Positions 6,461-32,862 of a stretch of DNA of 35,484 bases are shown here, in pieces (positions within the stretch are counted from its first letter, which is position 1; the number at the start of each line of letters is the position of its first letter). This DNA comes from Pontiellaceae bacterium B12219. Its GTDB lineage: Bacteria; Verrucomicrobiota; Kiritimatiellia; Kiritimatiellales; Pontiellaceae. Under the pieces are notes generated by a model. That model did not search any database and was not told where the DNA came from. It saw only the letters and a program-made list of their open reading frames with translations. A program made the position numbers and the translations under genes. Location of the stretch: NCBI GenBank assembly GCA_029432795.1, contig JARNMJ010000046.1, positions 1 through 35,484 on the forward strand, in the 5' to 3' direction.

Positions 6461-7435
6461 ATGGAAGAAACTAAAACCAATCAAACCTTAATATGGAGCG
6501 ATCGCTGGCGTCTTGGCGCGCTATCCAAAAGTGAACTGATGAATATCGGTTTTGCCTCCGTGATTATCGGGTTCCTTTTTATTCTGTTTCATCTCTTCGG
6601 GAACACGGTTGATAACGTGGGAAGCGCATCGGTGTTTAAATGGATGATTTCCCGCTGGGGGGATAAAGTTTCCTTTGGTGCGGACTATTCGCATGGTTAT
6701 CTGATTCCGTTCGTCAGTCTTTGGGTGGTCTGGTATCGGCGGGAAGAGATTCTGGCCGCACCGAAAAAGGTGTGTCAGTGGGGGCTGGCGGTCATCATTA
6801 TGGCGTTGGCGATGCACTGGTTGGGCGCCAAAATGCAGCAAACCCGTATTTCGCTGATGGCGTTGATTTTTCTCATCTGGGGAATTCCGTTCTATTTCTA
6901 CGGCTGGAAAGTGGCTAAATTGCTGATCTTTCCCTGTGCTTATCTTATTTTCTGTGTGCCGTTGAACTTTCTGGATGCGCTTTCGGGGCCGTTACAGCGT
7001 CTTGCAACCACTATGGCGCATAGCATGTTGGAAGGTATCGGTATTGAGTGTCAGCGCGTGGGAACGCAGCTGATTTCCCCTTATTTCCAGCTCAACGTGG
7101 AAGCGCCCTGTTCGGGGTTGCGGTCGTTGCTGGCCATGACGGCGTTGACGGCTGTGTATGCATATTACACACAGAAAACGTTTGTTAAAAAATGGTTGCT
7201 GTTTCTTTTCTCGATTCCAATCGCCGTGGCTGGAAATATCGGCCGTATTATTTCGATCGCGCTGGTTTCAATTACGGCTGGACAGCAGTTCGGTACCGGA
7301 TTGCACCATGACTGGTCGGGATACGTTCTGTTCACCGTGGCGATCAGTTTGATGGTCGGTTTCGGAAAACTGCTTAATGTCAATTACCGGGAGCTTTTCA
7401 AGACATGGAAAAAAGCCTATTTAAACCATTCATAA
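6461..7435 (+). CDS. Exosortase (membrane transpeptidase-like protease)
   Basis: Polytopic membrane protein of 324 residues. Exosortases are cysteine proteases that recognise a C-terminal PEP-CTERM-type signal on exported proteins, cleave it and probably join the protein to a cell-surface carrier. The three conserved catalytic positions are visible: Cys217 in APCSGLRSL, Arg262 in GNIGRI and His282/283 in LHHDWSGY. The N-terminal motif YSHGYLIPFVSLWVVWYRR is also typical. About eight hydrophobic segments occur. The start ATG has only a weak ribosome-binding site. Its last 31 bases overlap the EpsI-like gene, so the two are translationally linked. The exosortase subtype cannot be assigned by eye, and no PEP-CTERM substrate is seen in this window. 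Confidence 0.9.
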   Translation: MEETKTNQTLIWSDRWRLGALSKSELMNIGFASVIIGFLFILFHLFGNTVDNVGSASVFKWMISRWGDKVSFGADYSHGYLIPFVSLWVVWYRREEILAAPKKVCQWGLAVIIMALAMHWLGAKMQQTRISLMALIFLIWGIPFYFYGWKVAKLLIFPCAYLIFCVPLNFLDALSGPLQRLATTMAHSMLEGIGIECQRVGTQLISPYFQLNVEAPCSGLRSLLAMTALTAVYAYYTQKTFVKKWLLFLFSIPIAVAGNIGRIISIALVSITAGQQFGTGLHHDWSGYVLFTVAISLMVGFGKLLNVNYRELFKTWKKAYLNHS

Positions 7436-8199
7436 CCATCATCATTCTGATGATGCTGTCCATTGTTGCGCTCGCGTTTACCACCGATGTGAAATTTGAT
7501 TTTGTTCCGGGGGTAAAAATGGAGCTGCCGGAAGATGTTGAGGGCTGGCATGGCAATCAGCTCAAGTTCTGTCATAACCCGGATCTCTGTGCCAAGGACT
7601 ATCGCGATGCCTCGTTTTATGTCAGTGATCTGGTCATTCCGGACATTTGCCCGGATTGCGGAAGTGTGCTCTTTAATATGGCGCGTGCCGAAAAAGAGCA
7701 GTTGCCGGACGATACCGAATTTGTGAAATCGGCTTTCACCAATGATGCGGGAACCCGCCTTTTTACTTCGATTGTGTTGTCAGGAACGGCCCGTGACTCC
7801 ATTCACCGTCCACAGCGTTGTCTGAAAGGGCAGGGTAATAATATGGATGGCGAGTATGATCTGGAAGTGCCGCTGGAAGGGCGGGATCCTTTGACGGTTC
7901 GCGTCATTAAAACATCCCGTACGTTCCGCACGGCGGATGGTCCCGTCCCGTATTATTCGTTCTATGCCTATTGGTTTGTCGGGCAGGACCGTGAAACGTC
8001 CTCGCACTATTCCCGTATGTTCTGGCTGGCCTGGGACCGCGTGGTACGCAGTAAAGCCAATCGCTGGGCCTACATTGCAGTGCAGGGCGAGCGGGAGCCG
8101 GAAGGAAATGAATACGAAGCCCTGATTATTGATTTTATTCAGCAGGTTTATCCGTATGTGCTGACGGACACGATGCGTGAGAAGGCCTACGGAGAATAA
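7405..8199 (+). CDS. Exosortase-associated EpsI-like protein
   Basis: Protein of 264 residues with one N-terminal membrane anchor or signal segment (FITIIILMMLSIVALAF, ~9-25) followed by a soluble extracytoplasmic domain. The motif DSIHRPQRCLKGQG (~131-144) matches the conserved HRPExCLPGxG signature of EpsI domains, which are found fused to or directly downstream of exosortases. Cysteine pairs (CHNPDLC, CPDC) lie in the N-terminal half and may form disulfides. The 31-base overlap with the exosortase gene supports a joint function in surface-protein or exopolysaccharide processing; the exact biochemical role of EpsI is not established. Confidence 0.85.
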   Translation: MEKSLFKPFITIIILMMLSIVALAFTTDVKFDFVPGVKMELPEDVEGWHGNQLKFCHNPDLCAKDYRDASFYVSDLVIPDICPDCGSVLFNMARAEKEQLPDDTEFVKSAFTNDAGTRLFTSIVLSGTARDSIHRPQRCLKGQGNNMDGEYDLEVPLEGRDPLTVRVIKTSRTFRTADGPVPYYSFYAYWFVGQDRETSSHYSRMFWLAWDRVVRSKANRWAYIAVQGEREPEGNEYEALIIDFIQQVYPYVLTDTMREKAYGE

Positions 8200-12792: not shown

Positions 12793-13242
12793 TTTGCTGA
12801 TTGCGTCCGTTCCAATTTCTTTAAGCCATGCCGTTTCTGTATCGAGCATGGCTTTTTTCTTTTCAGGGGTGTCATCTTCGGCGCCGGAGAGGTGATCGAA
12901 GCCGTGAGCAATATAGAGCGCGAGCTCGTAGTCGGCTCCGTTCTGTTCGGGGCCGACCTGCAGTGCGCGGTCGACATTAATAATCAGATCTCCGCTGAAT
13001 CCCTCTTCTTCGCCTGGAACGGGATCATAGCGAAAGCTGATGACGTCGGTTGGGCGGTTTTTGCCGAAGTATTCCTGATTGGCTGGCACAATGCCTTCGT
13101 CGTCGGTGAGGACGACGCAGATTTCGTTCCAGGGTTCGGAAGTTCGGGGCGCAAGCCGCTCGCCCAGCCACTCAGCCAGCTTTTGAATTTTCTTCAGCTG
13201 GAGCTGATGTTTCTTTTGGTGATTTAGCAGATTTATTATCAT
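12781..13242 (-). CDS. ybeY: Endoribonuclease YbeY (rRNA maturation factor)
   Basis: YbeY-family metal-dependent endoribonuclease, 153 residues, involved in 16S rRNA 3'-end maturation and ribosome quality control. Matching regions are the beta-strand ICVVLTDDEGIVPANQEYFG, the motif KNRPTDVISF and GDLIINV. The zinc motif, usually HGxLHLxGxDH, reads HGFDHLSGAED (113-123): the third ligand His is replaced by Asp123, and Leu by Asp116. Its start overlaps the pgpH end by 71 bases in another frame; the overlapping N-terminus ([11 protein letters not shown]) still looks like YbeY, so the overlap seems real. It is the last gene of the phoH-pgpH-ybeY operon. Confidence 0.9.
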   Translation of the reverse strand: MIINLLNHQKKHQLQLKKIQKLAEWLGERLAPRTSEPWNEICVVLTDDEGIVPANQEYFGKNRPTDVISFRYDPVPGEEEGFSGDLIINVDRALQVGPEQNGADYELALYIAHGFDHLSGAEDDTPEKKKAMLDTETAWLKEIGTDAISKLFK

Positions 13243-15478
13243 CGTCTTTAGGGTACGGGATGCGTCCGTGCAGCATGTTTGAAAGTGAGAAAATGAAGGA
13301 CTGTTTGACCACGTTAATCTGGGCCATCGTCAGATTGGCATAGTCCATCTGACCATCGCGGATTTTCATGGCAAAGATGTCATTCATGAGGTTGGATATT
13401 TTCTGAGGTGTCGGCTTCTCAATAGACCGGGCGGCGGCCTCGGAGGCATCGGCCAAAGAGAGAATAGCCATTTCCGGAGATACGGCCGGGGCACCGCCAT
13501 AGCGGAAGTCGGAATCATTAATAAGGTCATTCATGGAGTTGCCGGCCCCTTCTTTGGCGGCTTGTTTGGCCTTGTGATAGAAGAAGGAGATCAGCCCGTT
13601 TCCGTGGTGCTGTTCAATGGCATCAAGGATCGGCTGGGGCAGCTTGTGGCGTTTGGCGAGCGTTAGGCCTTCTTTCACGTGTGAGGAAATGACAAGCGCG
13701 CTCATGTGGGGCGAAAGTTCGTCGTGCGGATTTTCTTTATGCTGGATGTTTTCGGTGAAGAACTCGGGTTTCGCCATTTTTCCGATGTCGTGATAGTAGG
13801 CGCAAACGCGAATGAGCAGGGAGTTGGCTCCGATGGCTTCCGCGGCATTCTGGGCGAGCGTGGCCACCATCAAGGAATGGTGATAGGTGCCGGGAGCCTG
13901 AATGGCCATTTTCTGAAGCAGGGGGTGTCCCATGTCGGAAAGTTCAAGCAGGGTAATGTCGGTTGTGATTTTGAAAAGTTTTTCAAATATCGGAATAAGC
14001 AGGAGCGTGAGAACCGTCGATAGCAAACCGGATAAGATGGAGGCTAAAATCTGGCCGACGAGTACCGAGGCAATCGGTCGATTGAGAATGGCGGAGACCA
14101 ATACAAAGAGCACTTTGACTGCGCAGATCCAGATGCCGGCCCGAAAGAGACTGGAGCGTCGGTGAATATTGCGGACAGAACTTGCAGCCGTGATGGTGAC
14201 GAGCATGCCGAGGGCAAAAACATTGAAGGACTGTGTGAACAGGACGCCGAGGGCAAAGCTGCACCAGAACCCGAGTGTGATGGCCGCCATGCCGCCGAGC
14301 AGAATTCCGGCGAGCAGTACGGCGAGTGCTGAGGGAACGAGATACATCAGCAGGGAGGGTGAAATGAGAGCGTACTGCACAGAGAGATAGGTCAAAAGCC
14401 GCGCCAGACCGAGGGTGAAGAGCGAGAGTATCGCAAGCAGCAATAATTTATCCGGCTGTCGAATCAGCGGGGCGCTGCCCACCTTCAGGAAGACAGCGGT
14501 TGCAATGAGTCCGGCAAGCAGAAGGATTCCGTTTCCGACAATTTCCAGGGCCTGTTCCCAGACATCCTGATCGGCTTGGCGTTGTATTTCATGTTTTTTC
14601 AGCAACAGCAGGGTCTGCTGGGTGACGGAGTCGCCGGCCCGGGCGAGTGTGGTTCCGGAGGGGTATTTCTGAATGAAGGGTTCTACCATGCTGGCCGCGA
14701 TCTTTCGTTCGGCAAGCGTGGAAGCTTCGTCGTAGGTCATGTTGTCGACAACAAAGATGGGCAGGAGTCGGTTCAGTAAATCCTTTTGCTGTTCATTTTT
14801 AAATCTCTCACTGATGGCCCAGACTGCTGTGCGGGTTGAGAATACATTGTTTTGCGAAACGACATTCGGCGTCGGATCATCATTTTTTCGAATGGTCAGT
14901 AATCGGTCCGATGTGTCTTCGAAGAGTGTTACCCGCGATTCATCGGATAGAATACCTTTTTCCATCGTATCCAAAATCGCCTTGGTCAGGGTGATTTTGG
15001 AACTTTTCAGAATGTTGGTCGGGAAGGTGGTGATCATTTCTTCCGGGGTCACTTTGGAACCGAGAATCAGCCCTTCCATCGAGTTGATGATGGTTTGCTG
15101 CTGATTGGAGGATGCAACTGCGTACTGCCCGATCTGGTCGAAAAGCATATCCACCATTTTGGCCGCGCGCTCGGCGGGAAGGGGATTGATGGTGAAAACC
15201 GGTGGAACGGCGCTCGCCGCTCTGTTTTTACTCAATGACGTTTCGTAGAGATTTTCGCATTCGAAATCCACGGAGGCGACGACGGTGGACGGAATTGTAT
15301 TTCCTTCGGATAAAGCGGGGGTGCGTACGATACCGTGGCCGAAAAACATCCAGGTGACCAACAGCCAGAGAATCAGGCCGAGGCCGACCGATTTATAGGG
15401 AACATCCTGTTTGCGCTGGACTTCTGTTTTGCGCTCGGCGATTCCCTTCTTTTTCTTATCTTTAAAACGTTTTTTCAC
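13172..15478 (-). CDS. 7TM-HD phosphohydrolase, PgpH-like (c-di-AMP phosphodiesterase family)
   Basis: Membrane-bound HD-domain protein of 768 residues. Order: short basic N-terminus ([11 protein letters not shown]), one membrane segment (~40-60), a large extracytoplasmic 7TMR-HDED-type domain (~70-315), seven hydrophobic helices (~320-520), then a cytoplasmic HD domain with [18 protein letters not shown] and [14 protein letters not shown] carrying the metal-binding His and His-Asp. Characterised PgpH proteins hydrolyse cyclic di-AMP. The GTG start at 15478 is chosen because AAGGAG lies 7 bases upstream (15491-15486); the longer ATG at 15532 would overlap phoH by 71 bases without such a site. 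With GTG the overlap with phoH is 17 bases. Confidence 0.88.
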
Positions 15479-28393: not shown

Positions 28394-28593
28394 CTGGGAT
28401 CTCCACAAGCAATTTAATTCGAATCAAAAATAACGATGCGCCGGAATTTTAGCAATACATGGTTTCCTGCCACGGGAAGGTTTTTGCATTTTCGAAATAC
28501 GGGTGAGGTATAAATATTTCGGTTGAACCCATGCCGTAAAAGGGTTTGAATCCAGCCATTCAATAGCTCACCCTTTAATTATTTTGGAGAACA

Positions 28594-28932
28594 ATGGAAT
28601 TACAACGGATTGCCCACGCCCTCGATGCCGATTTTATCTGCGGACCGGACGACTGGGAAAAAATCTCGATCGAGTCAGTGGTTGCATCGGATCTGATGAG
28701 CGATGTGCTGATGAGTGATCGCGATGACCTGCTTTTGATTACCTCACTTTCCACGGAGCAGTCGATTCGCTCGGCGGGCATCGTCGGTTCGGAAGTGGTG
28801 GTGATTGCCAATAACAAAACGGTCACCGAAGGAATGGTTGAGCTGGCAGGAGATCAGGGAATTGCTCTGTTCTGCACGCGTTACCCGAAATATGAAGCCT
28901 GTGTGCGGCTGGGTCGAATAATGGAGCCTTAA
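28594..28932 (+). CDS. DRTGG-domain protein (first copy)
   Basis: Small cytosolic protein of 112 residues that consists of a single DRTGG domain, a fold also seen between the CBS and DHH parts of some pyrophosphatases and in phosphotransacetylase N-terminal regions. Key stretches are VVASDLMSDVLMSDRDDLLLITSL and SAGIVGSEVVVIANNKTV. No catalytic motif is visible; a regulatory, ligand-binding role is likely. TTGGAG stands before ATG 28594. Its stop overlaps the next start (TAATG), and it is paralogous to the gene at 29851, which shares the SDLLSDVMGNAEEGSVLIT pattern. It opens a four-gene cassette. Confidence 0.8.
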   Translation: MELQRIAHALDADFICGPDDWEKISIESVVASDLMSDVLMSDRDDLLLITSLSTEQSIRSAGIVGSEVVVIANNKTVTEGMVELAGDQGIALFCTRYPKYEACVRLGRIMEP

Positions 28933-29864
28933 TGAACAAGGAGCACAAACAACCGCTCCAATCTTCACTGCGTGTCCAGGAGCTGCTCTATGGACTCCGC
29001 ATTATTGAAGTGATGACCAAAAAAGTTTTCGCTGTAACGCGGAACTGCAACATGCGGGATGTGCAGGCTATCATGAAAAACAATTCCATTTCCGGCATGC
29101 CGGTGGTGGATAATAAACGTGTGGTCGGTATTGTGACCATGAATGACCTCATGAATGCTTTGGAACAGGGCGGCATGGAGGATAGTGTCATCAAATGGAT
29201 GGCCGGCGAGGTACAGACGCTGGCCGAGGATATGCCGCTTTCGTTCGCCATTTCAGCCTTTGGAAAATTTCCGTTTCGGCAGTTTCCGGTGGTGAATAAA
29301 AAAAATGAGCTCACGGGCATTCTGACATTCCGGAACATCAACCATGCGTTAATTCGTGAATTATCGCGGCAGCTTCGCGAAATGGAGCAACAAAGCGAAC
29401 AACCGGTGGACCGTGCTTCGCTGAACTTTTCCAAGGTCTATCAACTCAATCGCTATGATTTTGAAAATGGAGGAAAAGCCTCCAGCAGAATTAAGAGTTT
29501 TCTCAAAGAGCGCGGGGTCCCGCCGAAAACCGTGCGGCGAGTGGCCGTGGCGAGTTATGAACTGGAGATTAATCTTGTGGCCCATTCCATTGGGGGCATG
29601 CTTGGTTTTGACATCAACGAGAACCGCGTTAAAATTTCATCACACGATCGTGGTCCAGGCATTGGAAATGTTGAAAATGCAATGACCGAAGGGTTTTCGA
29701 CCGCGAATGAATGGATCCGCTCGCAGGGGTTCGGTGCGGGGATGGGACTGCCGAATGTGAAGCGCGTATCCGACGAATTTGCCATCGAATCCGCCGTGGG
29801 GATGGGTACGATGGTTCAGGCCATCATTTATTTGAAACCGGAGAAGCAAAATGAAAGTCAGTGA
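28932..29864 (+). CDS. CBS-CBS-HATPase regulator (RsbW/anti-sigma kinase-like)
   Basis: Cytosolic protein of 310 residues with two CBS domains (~25-80, EVMTKKVFAVTRNCNMRDV; ~90-145, QFPVVNKKNELTGILTF) that usually bind adenine nucleotides, then a GHKL ATPase domain (~195-305) with N-box ASYELEINLVAHS, G1 box SHDRGPGIGN and G2 box GFGAGMGLPNVKR, as in RsbW/SpoIIAB-type serine kinases. There is no histidine-kinase DHp domain, so it is more likely a switch kinase or anti-sigma-like factor than a two-component sensor. It is joined by start-stop overlap to both neighbouring DRTGG genes. Such proteins accompany hydrogenase gene sets in Thermotoga and Clostridia. Confidence 0.85.
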   Translation: MNKEHKQPLQSSLRVQELLYGLRIIEVMTKKVFAVTRNCNMRDVQAIMKNNSISGMPVVDNKRVVGIVTMNDLMNALEQGGMEDSVIKWMAGEVQTLAEDMPLSFAISAFGKFPFRQFPVVNKKNELTGILTFRNINHALIRELSRQLREMEQQSEQPVDRASLNFSKVYQLNRYDFENGGKASSRIKSFLKERGVPPKTVRRVAVASYELEINLVAHSIGGMLGFDINENRVKISSHDRGPGIGNVENAMTEGFSTANEWIRSQGFGAGMGLPNVKRVSDEFAIESAVGMGTMVQAIIYLKPEKQNESQ

Positions 29865-30195
29865 CCTTGCATCCATGGATCAATTCATCTGTATGCAGAA
29901 CGAATATGAAGACAGGGAAATTACCGCGGGCTACACTTCTGATCTGCTGAGTGATGTGATGGGAAATGCCGAAGAGGGCTCCGTATTGATTACCATTCAG
30001 GCGCATAAAAATACGGTGGCGGTTTCTTCGCTCGCGGGGATTGCAGCGATTATCATCTGTAACAACCGCCCGCTACCCGAAGACATGCTGGCGGCTTCCG
30101 CCGATGAAGGCATTGCGGTTTTCCAAACTTCGGAAAATCAGTTTAATACGTCGGCACTGATTGCTCAGCATCTTGGTGGCTGTTCTGCAGTTTAG
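29851..30195 (+). CDS. DRTGG-domain protein (second copy)
   Basis: Single-domain DRTGG protein of 114 residues. It resembles the first copy through AGYTSDLLSDVMGNAEEG and VSSLAGIAAIIICNNRPLP, but the two differ clearly, so the duplication is old. The start overlaps the end of the CBS-HATPase gene by 14 bases, and the stop is immediately followed by the PHP gene. A regulatory partner role for the kinase-like neighbour is inference. Confidence 0.8.
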   Translation: MKVSDLASMDQFICMQNEYEDREITAGYTSDLLSDVMGNAEEGSVLITIQAHKNTVAVSSLAGIAAIIICNNRPLPEDMLAASADEGIAVFQTSENQFNTSALIAQHLGGCSAV

Positions 30196-30204
30196 GTGAA
30201 TGCG

Positions 30205-30894
30205 ATGAACTTCCGGGCGGACTTTCATATCCACAGTTGCCTGTCGCCCTGCGCGTCGTTGGAAATGTCGCCCTCTGCGATTGTTCAGCAGGCGAAAACG
30301 GTCGGATTGACAGCAGTTTCGCTTTCGGATCATAACAGCACCTTCAATCTTCCTGCCTTTGGAAAAATCTGCGAGCAGGAAGGAATGGCCTGTCTGTACG
30401 GCATAGAAGTGACTTCGCTGGAGGAAGCGCACATCCTGTGTCTGTTTGATCAGCTGGACGCGGCGATGGAACTGGGCGGGCTGATTTATGACAGCCTTCC
30501 GGATATTCCAAATATTCCTGAAAAATTCGGTGATCAGCCGATCATTAATGAGCGCGAAGAGATCCTGGGTTTTGCCGAAAAATTCTTAATCAGTGCATCC
30601 CGCTTTGATGTCAGTTCACTGGTTCAGGAGGTGCATGCGCTGGGCGGGCTGATTGTTCCCGCGCATATTGACCGTTCGATGTTCGGGCTGATTGCCCAGC
30701 TCGGTTTTTTGCCGGACGAAGATTTTGACGCGGTTGAACTGACCGCTTATGGCGATCCCGCGCTGGCTTTGCACTATCCGATTATGCGCAACTCCGATTC
30801 GCATCACCTCAACACGCTCGGGAAGGCCTATACCGATTTTGAGGTTGAAACGCTGAACGTGAAAAACCTGCGTTCCAACCTTTGGAAAAAATAG
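30205..30894 (+). CDS. PHP-domain phosphoesterase
   Basis: PHP-family metal-dependent phosphoesterase of 229 residues. Motif I is FRADFHIHSCLSPC, motif II LSDHNST, a following acidic motif GIEVTSLEEAH, then PAHIDRS, and the last motif is RNSDSHHLNTLG; together they supply the His/Asp/Glu ligands of the trinuclear metal site. The substrate is unknown. ATG 30205 is preferred to GTG 30196 because AGGTGA lies 7 bases upstream. It is the last gene of the DRTGG/CBS-HATPase/DRTGG/PHP cassette. A 15-bp palindrome copy overlaps its last codons. Confidence 0.87.
   Translation: MNFRADFHIHSCLSPCASLEMSPSAIVQQAKTVGLTAVSLSDHNSTFNLPAFGKICEQEGMACLYGIEVTSLEEAHILCLFDQLDAAMELGGLIYDSLPDIPNIPEKFGDQPIINEREEILGFAEKFLISASRFDVSSLVQEVHALGGLIVPAHIDRSMFGLIAQLGFLPDEDFDAVELTAYGDPALALHYPIMRNSDSHHLNTLGKAYTDFEVETLNVKNLRSNLWKK
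30873..30887. repeat. TTCCA-N5-TGGAA palindrome, copy 8
   Basis: Core ACCTT; overlaps the last codons of the PHP gene (RSNLWKK) in frame T-TCC-AAC-CTT-TGG-AA. Confidence 0.65.
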
Positions 30895-31782: not shown

Positions 31783-32862
31783 ATGGGCAAGGAAAAGATG
31801 GCGGGATGGGGATTTTCAGACTCCGGAATTTTTTTGGCGGGGGGGCCCTGCAGCGCGGAAAGTGAAGAGCAGGTGCTGACCACGGCAAGCGCGCTGGCCG
31901 GGAACGGGGTCGATTTTCTGCGTGCGGGAATCTGGAAGCCGCGTACCCGGCCCGGCAGTTTTGAAGGGGTGGGGCTGAAAGGGCTTGCTTGGTTGCAAAC
32001 CGCCCGAGCTGAAACCGGTTTGAAAATAGGAACTGAAGTGGCTGAGCCTTCACATGTGGAAGCCTGTCTTGAGGCCGGTCTCGATATCCTGTGGGTTGGG
32101 GCGCGGACCACCACCAATCCATTTTCGGTGCAGGCAATTGCTGATGCGTTGAAGGGGACCGAGATTCCTGTGCTGGTAAAAAACCCGATGAATGCTGATG
32201 TGGGTTTGTGGATTGGAGCCATTGAACGACTGGCGAATGCCGGGCTCACCAAATTGGGTGCCATTCACCGGGGCGTCAGTTCATCGCTGGAAATGCGCTA
32301 TCGAAATGCGCCGACGTGGAAAATGCCGATTGAACTGATGCGGCTTATGCCGGAAATTCCGATTCTTTGCGATCCCAGCCATATTTGCGGGAAGGCCGAG
32401 CTGATTTCCACGATTGCACAGGAGGCCATGGACTTGCTTTTTGATGGACTGATGGTGGAGGTTCATCCCGATCCGCCACATGCCCTGTCGGATGCCGCGC
32501 AGCAATTGACTCCGGCCGTCTTTCTTTCAATGATCGAGGAACTTAAGATTTCGCAGGAGCAGAGCGATAGTCTGCCTTTCGGGAAACAGATGAGTGCTTT
32601 GCGCGACGGGGTTGATGAAATCGACAGTCAGCTGCTGGAACTGATCAGCGGCCGAATGAAGCTGGTTCGGAAAATGGGTCACTTGAAATCCAGGCAGAAG
32701 GTATCAACGCTGCAGCCGCACCGTTGGCAGGCCATTCTGGAAGACCGGGTGCGCAAGGGCACAGGATTGAATTTGTCGGAAGATTTTGTGCTGCAGTTGA
32801 TGCAATCGGTTCATGAAGAAGCGATACGTCAGCAGGAATCCGATCGTTTGAACGAGATGTAG
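31783..32862 (+). CDS. Bifunctional DAHP synthase / chorismate mutase
   Basis: Fusion enzyme of 359 residues for aromatic amino-acid synthesis. The first ~260 residues are a type I-beta DAHP synthase (condensing phosphoenolpyruvate and erythrose 4-phosphate), with FLAGGPCSAESEEQV, the RAGIWKPRTRPGSFEGVG motif, LVKNPM, GAIHRG, and DPSHICGKAE. The last ~85 residues are an AroQ-type chorismate mutase (LRDGVDEIDSQLLELISGRM then KLVRKMGHLKSR). This order matches the bifunctional enzymes of Bacteroidota, where the mutase domain mediates feedback control. ATG 31783 has GAGG 5 bases upstream; an ATG at 31798 is also possible. Confidence 0.92.
   Translation: MGKEKMAGWGFSDSGIFLAGGPCSAESEEQVLTTASALAGNGVDFLRAGIWKPRTRPGSFEGVGLKGLAWLQTARAETGLKIGTEVAEPSHVEACLEAGLDILWVGARTTTNPFSVQAIADALKGTEIPVLVKNPMNADVGLWIGAIERLANAGLTKLGAIHRGVSSSLEMRYRNAPTWKMPIELMRLMPEIPILCDPSHICGKAELISTIAQEAMDLLFDGLMVEVHPDPPHALSDAAQQLTPAVFLSMIEELKISQEQSDSLPFGKQMSALRDGVDEIDSQLLELISGRMKLVRKMGHLKSRQKVSTLQPHRWQAILEDRVRKGTGLNLSEDFVLQLMQSVHEEAIRQQESDRLNEM

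Follow-up and report, generated by a model that had tools for sequence, protein, structure and literature searches.

Gene content of the locus

The window analyzed here is an entire contig (G000:C214, 35,484 bases) from the 4.75-Mb draft genome of a marine anaerobe related to Pontiella, and the subject of this study is a cassette of four genes on that contig. The initial annotation, which was derived from the sequence alone, had described these genes in the order DRTGG – CBS-HATPase – DRTGG – PHP, and the open reading frame (ORF) calls and Pfam matches agree with it as to their content, positions and common orientation. The components of the locus, with protein lengths in amino acids (aa), are as follows:

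28594..28932, + strand: DRTGG1, a stand-alone DRTGG-fold protein, 112 aa; Pfam DRTGG at 17.8 bits, under the cut-off
28932..29864, + strand: CBS-CBS-HATPase, 310 aa; CBS pair at residues ~23-140, SpoIIAB/RsbW-type ATPase at ~170-300
29851..30195, + strand: DRTGG2, a stand-alone DRTGG-fold protein, 114 aa; Pfam DRTGG at 24.8 bits (cut-off 25.2)
30205..30894, + strand: PHP-family metallo-phosphoesterase, 229 aa from the probable ATG, or 232 aa from a GTG at 30196
28523..28552, + strand: conserved upstream element, a likely promoter or operator of the cassette; exact match to TTGAAC-N9-AAAA-N3-YTT-NN-ATC

The TAATG junction and the 14-base overlap between cassette genes were as the annotation had described them. 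The PHP gene had been thought to start immediately after DRTGG2, at GTG 30196, but its homologues begin at M(L/K)xRxDFHIH and for this reason the start is probably ATG 30205, which leaves a 9-base gap. Pfam likewise identified the flanking genes as the YceH (DUF480) and NYN/LOTUS genes previously named. The order of all four cassette genes was conserved in each of the 23 near-relative loci that were read, and based on this constancy the arrangement is not due to chance. Among named relatives, Pontiellaceae bacteria B1224 and B12227 are the closest, with CBS-HATPases 87-88% identical to that of the window.

Hydrogenases of the same genome

The cassette had been annotated as a hydrogenase-type regulatory cassette with no hydrogenase beside it. 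The second part of that description is accurate for the whole 35-kb contig, in which there is no hydrogenase ORF, but it is misleading as a statement about the organism, as the hydABC genes are present on another contig and their separation from the cassette is a lineage-specific relocation. Three PF02906 (Fe_hyd_lg_C) proteins were identified in the genome: HydA on contig C273 and two proteins on contig C209. The annotation had allowed for hydABC elsewhere in the genome, and contig C273 indeed carries an operon comprised of hydC (encoding a 2Fe-2S thioredoxin-like protein), a HATPase gene, a gene for a probable 2Fe-2S protein, hydB (a Nuo51-type flavoprotein) and hydA; rex lies upstream in divergent orientation. 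Two products of the operon are:

L072 (G000:C273) 13607-14167: HydE-like HATPase of the hyd operon, 186 aa
L072 (G000:C273) 13205-13600: 131-aa protein of the hyd operon; no Pfam match, weak 2Fe-2S ferredoxin match (NCBIfam)

The five-gene order matches that of hydC-hydE-hydD-hydB-hydA in Acetobacterium woodii, in which a HATPase gene also lies inside the operon of a bifurcating hydrogenase (PMC3315566). That HATPase, HydE, is outside the active purified enzyme and has been proposed to be one that "may be involved in assembly or signalling" (PMC3315566).

The two other PF02906 proteins are encoded in a cluster on C209 (L073, 7606-12960) that consists of genes for an Fe-hydrogenase with FeS domains and a weak PAS match, a SpoIIE phosphatase, an 89-aa protein, a TIGR04105 monomeric [FeFe] hydrogenase (513.7 bits, cut-off 450) and Rex. 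By its gene content this is a putative hfs-like sensory cluster, of the type of the hfs/HydS (group C, PAS) operons of Thermoanaerobacterium and Ruminococcus albus, which represent a known case of hydrogenase-linked regulation (PMC5707799). Those operons differ from the cassette in that they are composed of other genes, with no DRTGG, CBS or PHP, and they are missing from some cassette carriers. The SpoIIE-type phosphatase of C209 was considered as a partner-switch phosphatase for the cassette and dropped; several cassette carriers show no hfs-like matches. There was no group-D-like HydS, a sensory type of hydrogenase that is considered below, among the three PF02906 proteins of the genome.

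Co-occurrence of the cassette with the hydrogenase and with its operon HATPase

Presence across genomes, which the initial annotation had named as bearing on a role with hydrogenases, was strongly correlated with hydrogenase. Among the 40 nearest genomes the cassette was found in 24, and 23 of these had an Fe-hydrogenase, versus seven of the 16 without a cassette. In a sample of the phylum comprising 193 genomes that were at least 90% complete, group-A HydA was identified in 29/31 cassette carriers versus 80/162 others (Fisher p 1.9e-6; this p-value and the next ignore shared ancestry). The HATPase of the hyd operon was scored in the same sample using alignment A6, rather than the "HATP2" profile, which drifts to long histidine kinases, and was present in 32 genomes, with the cassette present in 31 and both in 30 (30/31 cassette carriers versus 2/162 others, p ~1e-31). 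The cassette is therefore tied more tightly to the hyd-operon HATPase than to the hydrogenase itself, and based on this near one-to-one co-occurrence we read the HydE-like HATPase as the missing partner of the cassette. Three apparent exceptions (G157, G062 and G059) are genomes in which the contig breaks off within the hyd genes, at the point where hydA would be expected.

The main rival to a regulatory role is that the cassette is an assembly or maturation machine, in which the ATPases, DRTGG proteins and PHP protein assemble, or insert cofactors into, those HydABC enzymes with an additional HATPase and 2Fe2S subunit, with the CBS domains tying assembly to nucleotide supply and with no signaling involved. 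The near-perfect co-occurrence described above fits an assembly factor equally well as a regulator, and assembly is one of the two options that were offered for HydE (PMC3315566). However, 80 of the 162 cassette-negative genomes have HydA without a cassette, and the HydABC of Thermotoga maritima is described as a three-subunit enzyme (PMC6288185). As such, and in view of the exchange of sensors described below, we regard the assembly role as improbable, although it is the strongest of the competing explanations.

Linkage to the hyd operon and its loss in the Pontiellaceae

The hydrogenase-type character of the cassette was borne out by its location elsewhere, since the same four families adjoin bifurcating hydABC genes in relatives from other families and phyla. 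A single scan of 84,980 species genomes gave 80 named loci, which were read for up to 10 kb on each side. hydABC was within 10 kb of the cassette in 23 of the 80 (in Kiritimatiellota, Spirochaetota and Omnitrophota), and many of the other loci end at contig ends. In the typical linked layout [hydA-B-2Fe2S-HATPase-C] is divergent from [rex-DRTGG1-CBS-HATPase-DRTGG2-PHP]. In the sister family (G025, G027, G029, G034 and G038) and in G014 only a few kb separate the cassette from the hyd operon, and in most cases it lies right behind rex and divergent from hydC. In most Pontiellaceae the cassette has moved away from the hyd operon. In a relative whose genome is a single contig (G024) the cassette (605,660) and hydA (440,869) are ~165 kb apart, and hence the separation is real and not an effect of contig ends. 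Among 40 genomes in which the cassette was not beside the hyd genes, or only distantly so (a small number of Pontiellaceae among them), PF02906 was detected in 38 and group-A HydA in 36. In the neighborhoods that were read, the only named families to recur across lineages were those of the hyd genes, rex and the cassette; the other clusters were lineage-bound or antisense ORFs. Given these observations it is highly likely that the cassette is linked to HydABC.

The separation of ~165 kb in G024, together with a private upstream element (see below), could suggest that the Pontiellaceae cassette took on a function unrelated to hydrogenase. We consider this very improbable, as group-A HydA was present in every searched Pontiellaceae genome with a cassette and the sequence of the cassette in this family is tightly constrained (79-88% identity).

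Other features of the window were also seen near the cassette in individual relatives. An adjacent ORF pair that reads like an exosortase and an EpsI-like partner (window 6461-8199) has a counterpart ~4 kb upstream of the cassette in G028 (L074 717-2437), and an ORF resembling a DAHP synthase that ends in a chorismate-mutase region at its C terminus (window 31783-32862) has one near the cassette in G024 (L079 10505-11581).

A second form of the module with a putative sensory hydrogenase

The initial annotation had given as background that the same set of families stands beside bifurcating hydrogenases in Thermotoga and Clostridia. A Clostridial case was found once, in Subdoligranulum (L175), but in another form, with an ATPase that lacks CBS domains and a gene for a sensory-type hydrogenase inside the operon. 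No Thermotoga was among the results of the species-genome scan described above. The control genome of T. maritima had a DRTGG match and a PF02906 match; in that species TM1420-TM1422, beside the bifurcating TM1424-TM1426, are listed as a dimeric sensory hydrogenase (PMC3561251).

The CBS-less form was found by tblastn of plasmid records, which returned two genomic regions with HATPases that were 42-43% identical. In Subdoligranulum the gene order is DRTGG1 - HATPase - hydrogenase (424 aa) - DRTGG2 - PHP, and a hydC-HATPase-2Fe2S-hydB-hydA operon lies opposite it in divergent orientation. In Parabacteroides distasonis (L176) it is DRTGG1 - HATPase (141 aa) - [FeFe] hydrogenase (459 aa) - DRTGG2 - PHP, followed by a HATPase that resembles the one in hyd operons. 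Against the SpoIIAB and RsbW models the solo HATPase of L176 scored 58.5 and 30.7 bits, respectively. Both hydrogenases have SSxCP in place of the catalytic TSCCP and a CxxC-x4-C-x16-C tail. Group D (M2e) enzymes are "putative sensory" hydrogenases that have lost the proton-transfer cysteine and have an adjoining HATPase gene (PMC8163306), and the hydrogenases of L175 and L176 fit a group-D-like assignment, which is made by these motif features and the neighboring HATPase and not by a tree. Similarly, the group D/M2e enzyme TamHydS of Thermoanaerobacter mathranii has a HATPase gene beside it and is sited upstream of bifurcating hydABC (PMC8163306). The two loci thus share a DRTGG1-HATPase-HydS-DRTGG2-PHP core with a HydE-like HATPase. 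The window has the DRTGG1, HATPase, DRTGG2 and PHP genes of this core; its cassette differs in having no HydS and in the N-terminal CBS pair of its HATPase.

Many spirochaetes have both a CBS-HATPase cassette and a separate DRTGG1-HATPase-HydS mini-operon (L180-L187, L213-L223). Among the 21 spirochaetes with both loci, DRTGG1 was confined to the cassette in six genomes and to the HydS locus in 13; no genome had it in both, and two (L183/L123 and L221/L105) had it in neither. This exclusivity has a Fisher p of 5e-4, uncorrected for kinship. DRTGG2 and PHP remain with the CBS-HATPase. A single DRTGG1 gene, placed in either the cassette or the HydS locus, thus occurs in 19 of the 21, which would be most simply explained if both sensor ATPases were served by one DRTGG1 protein. 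In the window organism, which has no HydS of the group-D-like type, only the CBS input would then remain.

These comparisons identify the window cassette as one form of a hydrogenase control module, relocated and fused to CBS domains. Another form, in which a group-D-like hydrogenase is the likely sensor, occurs in Clostridia and Bacteroidota. They also suggest that its sensor is exchangeable, being either a hydrogenase or a CBS pair. The replacement of the CBS pair by a sensory-type hydrogenase looks like an exchange of sensors, which is a further argument against the assembly role outlined above. No description of the cassette was found in literature linking DRTGG, CBS or PHP proteins to hydrogenase, although that search was limited and is not proof that none exists.

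Expression control of the detached cassette

The upstream element of the cassette was present in all 14 Pontiellaceae loci that were scanned, with zero or one mismatch and fixed spacing, and its positions were 94% identical between species versus 30-34% in the flanks. There was no second copy with fewer than two mismatches in the 4.75-Mb window genome. Rex-like operators (TTGTKAN6TMACAA, two mismatches or fewer) were identified in 19 of 27 hydC-rex intergenic regions (~23 of them distinct), versus 1.9 expected from shuffles, and the hyd operon of the window genome has such an operator, ACGTTACAATCGTAACAA. Control of the window cassette by Rex was considered and rejected, as no TTGTKAN6TMACAA-like site with three mismatches or fewer was found upstream of ten Pontiellaceae cassettes. 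Since a conserved private element occurs there instead, and this 30-nt element does not resemble a recognizable Rex site, the Pontiellaceae cassette seems to have left Rex control and gained its own control region.

It is conceivable that the cassette is a transcriptional arm that modulates Rex, or another regulator, and hence hyd transcription only. In support of this are the frequent position of rex at the head of the cassette and the Rex-like operators in the 19 hydC-rex regions. Conversely, in the Pontiellaceae rex stays with the hyd genes while the departed cassette has no Rex-like site, the cassette encodes no DNA-binding protein, and the P. distasonis locus has a complete cassette with no Rex match in the 18 kb read. 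We therefore judge a purely transcriptional role to be quite improbable.

Properties of the cassette proteins

Both parts of the CBS-HATPase were above the Pfam cut-offs (CBS x2 at 80 bits; HATPase_c_2 at 29.0 bits, cut-off 27.4). In an alignment of 17 sequences from several phyla the ATPase boxes were invariant or nearly so: the N-box (E210/N214), G1 (D239-x-G-P-G), G2 (G268-x-G270) and T293. The CBS pair has the GhxhT/SxxD ribose-phosphate motif, which in CBS1 (G66/D72) is invariant. In the predicted structure the CBS half matches AcuB structures complexed with AMP, ADP, ATP and Ap4A, as well as other CBS pairs, and the ATPase half matches SpoIIAB (1til, TM 0.75 in Foldseek). The model had a pTM of 0.48, such that the relative placement of the domains is not trusted, and the fold search was dominated by the CBS domains. 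The ATPase shares the HATPase_c_2 domain and the N, G1 and G2 boxes with SpoIIAB and RsbW, but it differs from them in its CBS fusion, in its gene neighbors, which are taken up below, and in scoring only 38.8 bits against the NCBIfam SpoIIAB equivalog, far under the cut-off of 135 bits. On these sequence criteria it is best described as a predicted SpoIIAB/RsbW relative that is not an anti-sigma F factor.

The PHP protein was also above its cut-offs (PHP at 38 bits, cut-off 26.4; PHP_C at 23.5 bits, cut-off 21.3), and its metal ligands (D9, H11, H13, D45, H46, E71, H79, H157, D201 and H203, counted from the GTG start at 30196) were invariant in 17 homologues from several phyla. The invariance of the ATPase and PHP motifs indicates that the catalytic parts of the cassette are under selection.

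The two small proteins both missed the gathering cut-off of Pfam DRTGG (PF07085), but 10 of 13 homologues of DRTGG1 and 14 of 18 homologues of DRTGG2 matched the family at E<0.01. The AlphaFold model of DRTGG2 (pLDDT 94.6, pTM 0.88) superposed on AF1212, a Pfam DRTGG protein (Z 13.9, 110 residues, rmsd 2.4), on the DRTGG domain of a CBS-pyrophosphatase (3l2b; Z 12.0) and on the HPr kinase N-domain (Z 11.2). Given these matches of the homologues and of the model, the DRTGG assignment of both proteins holds, as DRTGG-like proteins or ones of DRTGG fold and not as strict Pfam members; the modeled fold is that of DRTGG2 alone, and the assignment of DRTGG1 comes from its sequence. Invariant residues in the homologue alignments were S36, L39, L52, Q56, R59, A61 and A85 for DRTGG1, and Y28, D31-L-L-S-D-V36 and T48-x-Q-x-H52 for DRTGG2, in the context Y-T/A-S/G-DLLSDV. 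The best PDB sequence match of the DRTGG1 profile was the CBS-DRTGG region of the Clostridium perfringens family II pyrophosphatase (weak, E 0.018), and the structures of that region (3l2b/3l31) were the sole PDB matches, also weak, of both DRTGG profiles. CBS and DRTGG modules are combined in both systems. In the pyrophosphatase they are within a single enzyme, whereas in the cassette the CBS pair is fused to an ATPase, the DRTGG proteins are separate and there is no pyrophosphatase.

The resemblance to that region also raises the possibility of a nucleotide-turnover module, in which the PHP protein would hydrolyze whatever nucleotide the CBS and DRTGG proteins sense (e.g., Ap4A, AMP derivatives or pAp), the HATPase would be a nucleotide-responsive scaffold and any output to the hydrogenase would be indirect. 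Consistent with this, the C. perfringens CBS-DRTGG region is the nearest structural analogue, and the PHP protein weakly matches a nucleoside bisphosphate phosphatase (29 bits, below cut-off). However, this explanation does not account for the HATPase, for two separate DRTGG proteins or for a DRTGG1 that is common to two ATPases, and we consider it decidedly unlikely.

A model for control of HydABC

On balance we favor, as somewhat probable, a role for the cassette as the control arm of HydABC, the electron-bifurcating [FeFe] hydrogenase, operating as a SpoIIAB/RsbW-like switch with adenine-nucleotide input. This reading is based on the hyd operon in the same genome, the linkage and co-occurrence of the two, the invariant catalytic motifs, the DRTGG folds, which match the nucleotide-regulated CBS-DRTGG region of the pyrophosphatase, the shared DRTGG1 and the precedent of HydE in A. 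woodii. The wiring that the initial annotation had proposed (sensing by the CBS domains, phosphorylation by the ATPase, a DRTGG target and reversal by PHP) is plausible.

In the mechanism that we propose, the CBS pair would bind an adenine nucleotide, be it AMP, ADP, ATP or a dinucleotide (e.g., Ap4A), and thereby gate the fused ATPase; the evidence leans slightly toward sensing of this kind by the predicted CBS sensor. The CBS-HATPase would bind, and probably phosphorylate, DRTGG1 as the shared switch component, a phospho-transfer that we put forward tentatively. DRTGG2 and the PHP phosphoesterase would form a return branch that resets DRTGG1. The free or phosphorylated DRTGG protein would act on the HydE-like HATPase at the hydrogenase, and for action by that route the case is evenly balanced. 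The activity or assembly of HydABC would in this way be raised or lowered with the energy charge of the cell. In the Clostridial and Bacteroidota relatives the input to the same core would come from a sensory hydrogenase of group-D-like type, in place of the CBS domains.

Several observations weigh against this interpretation. The ribose motif of CBS2 has N135 in the Pontiellaceae, where spirochaetes have D. SpoIIAB and RsbW usually have a STAS protein or a sigma factor as partner, and there was no STAS anti-anti-sigma protein or sigma factor among the four cassette and two flanking genes. The co-occurrence counts are not phylogenetically independent. The cassette was present in only 29 of 109 HydA carriers, and thus it serves one subset of hydrogenases. 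Four draft genomes (G058, G065, G079 and G037) carry the cassette with no group-A HydA detected, and in G184 the cassette and the HATPase were present but HydA was not detected in the genome. On the same contig (C104; L205/L188) G184 has HydC- and HydB-like genes next to what are probably genes for heterodisulfide reductase subunits (the latter judged by sequence), and the actual client of the cassette may accordingly be the HydBC bifurcating module.

We also speculate, at a lower level of confidence, on a two-input switch: a shared DRTGG1 that takes both an energy-charge signal from the CBS-HATPase and an H2 or redox signal from the HydS-HATPase, and that sets HydABC, or HydBC-type bifurcating enzymes generally, via the HydE HATPase and PHP. 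The lineage of the window would have lost the H2 input and kept the adenylate one, expressed from a relocated and separately controlled operon. This extended scheme is possible but, in our estimation, unlikely in its entirety.

Significance

In anaerobes, HydABC acts as a central valve for H2 and NADH/ferredoxin. The co-occurrence reported here joins the HydE-like HATPase, the DRTGG proteins, the sensor-ATPase and the PHP protein into one module. Since 2012 the role of the HydE HATPase has stood as "assembly or signalling" (PMC3315566), and the signal output of group D hydrogenases has likewise been left open (PMC8163306); with this module both questions become directly testable. If the proposed model is true, energy charge and H2 would be tied to the gating of electron bifurcation.

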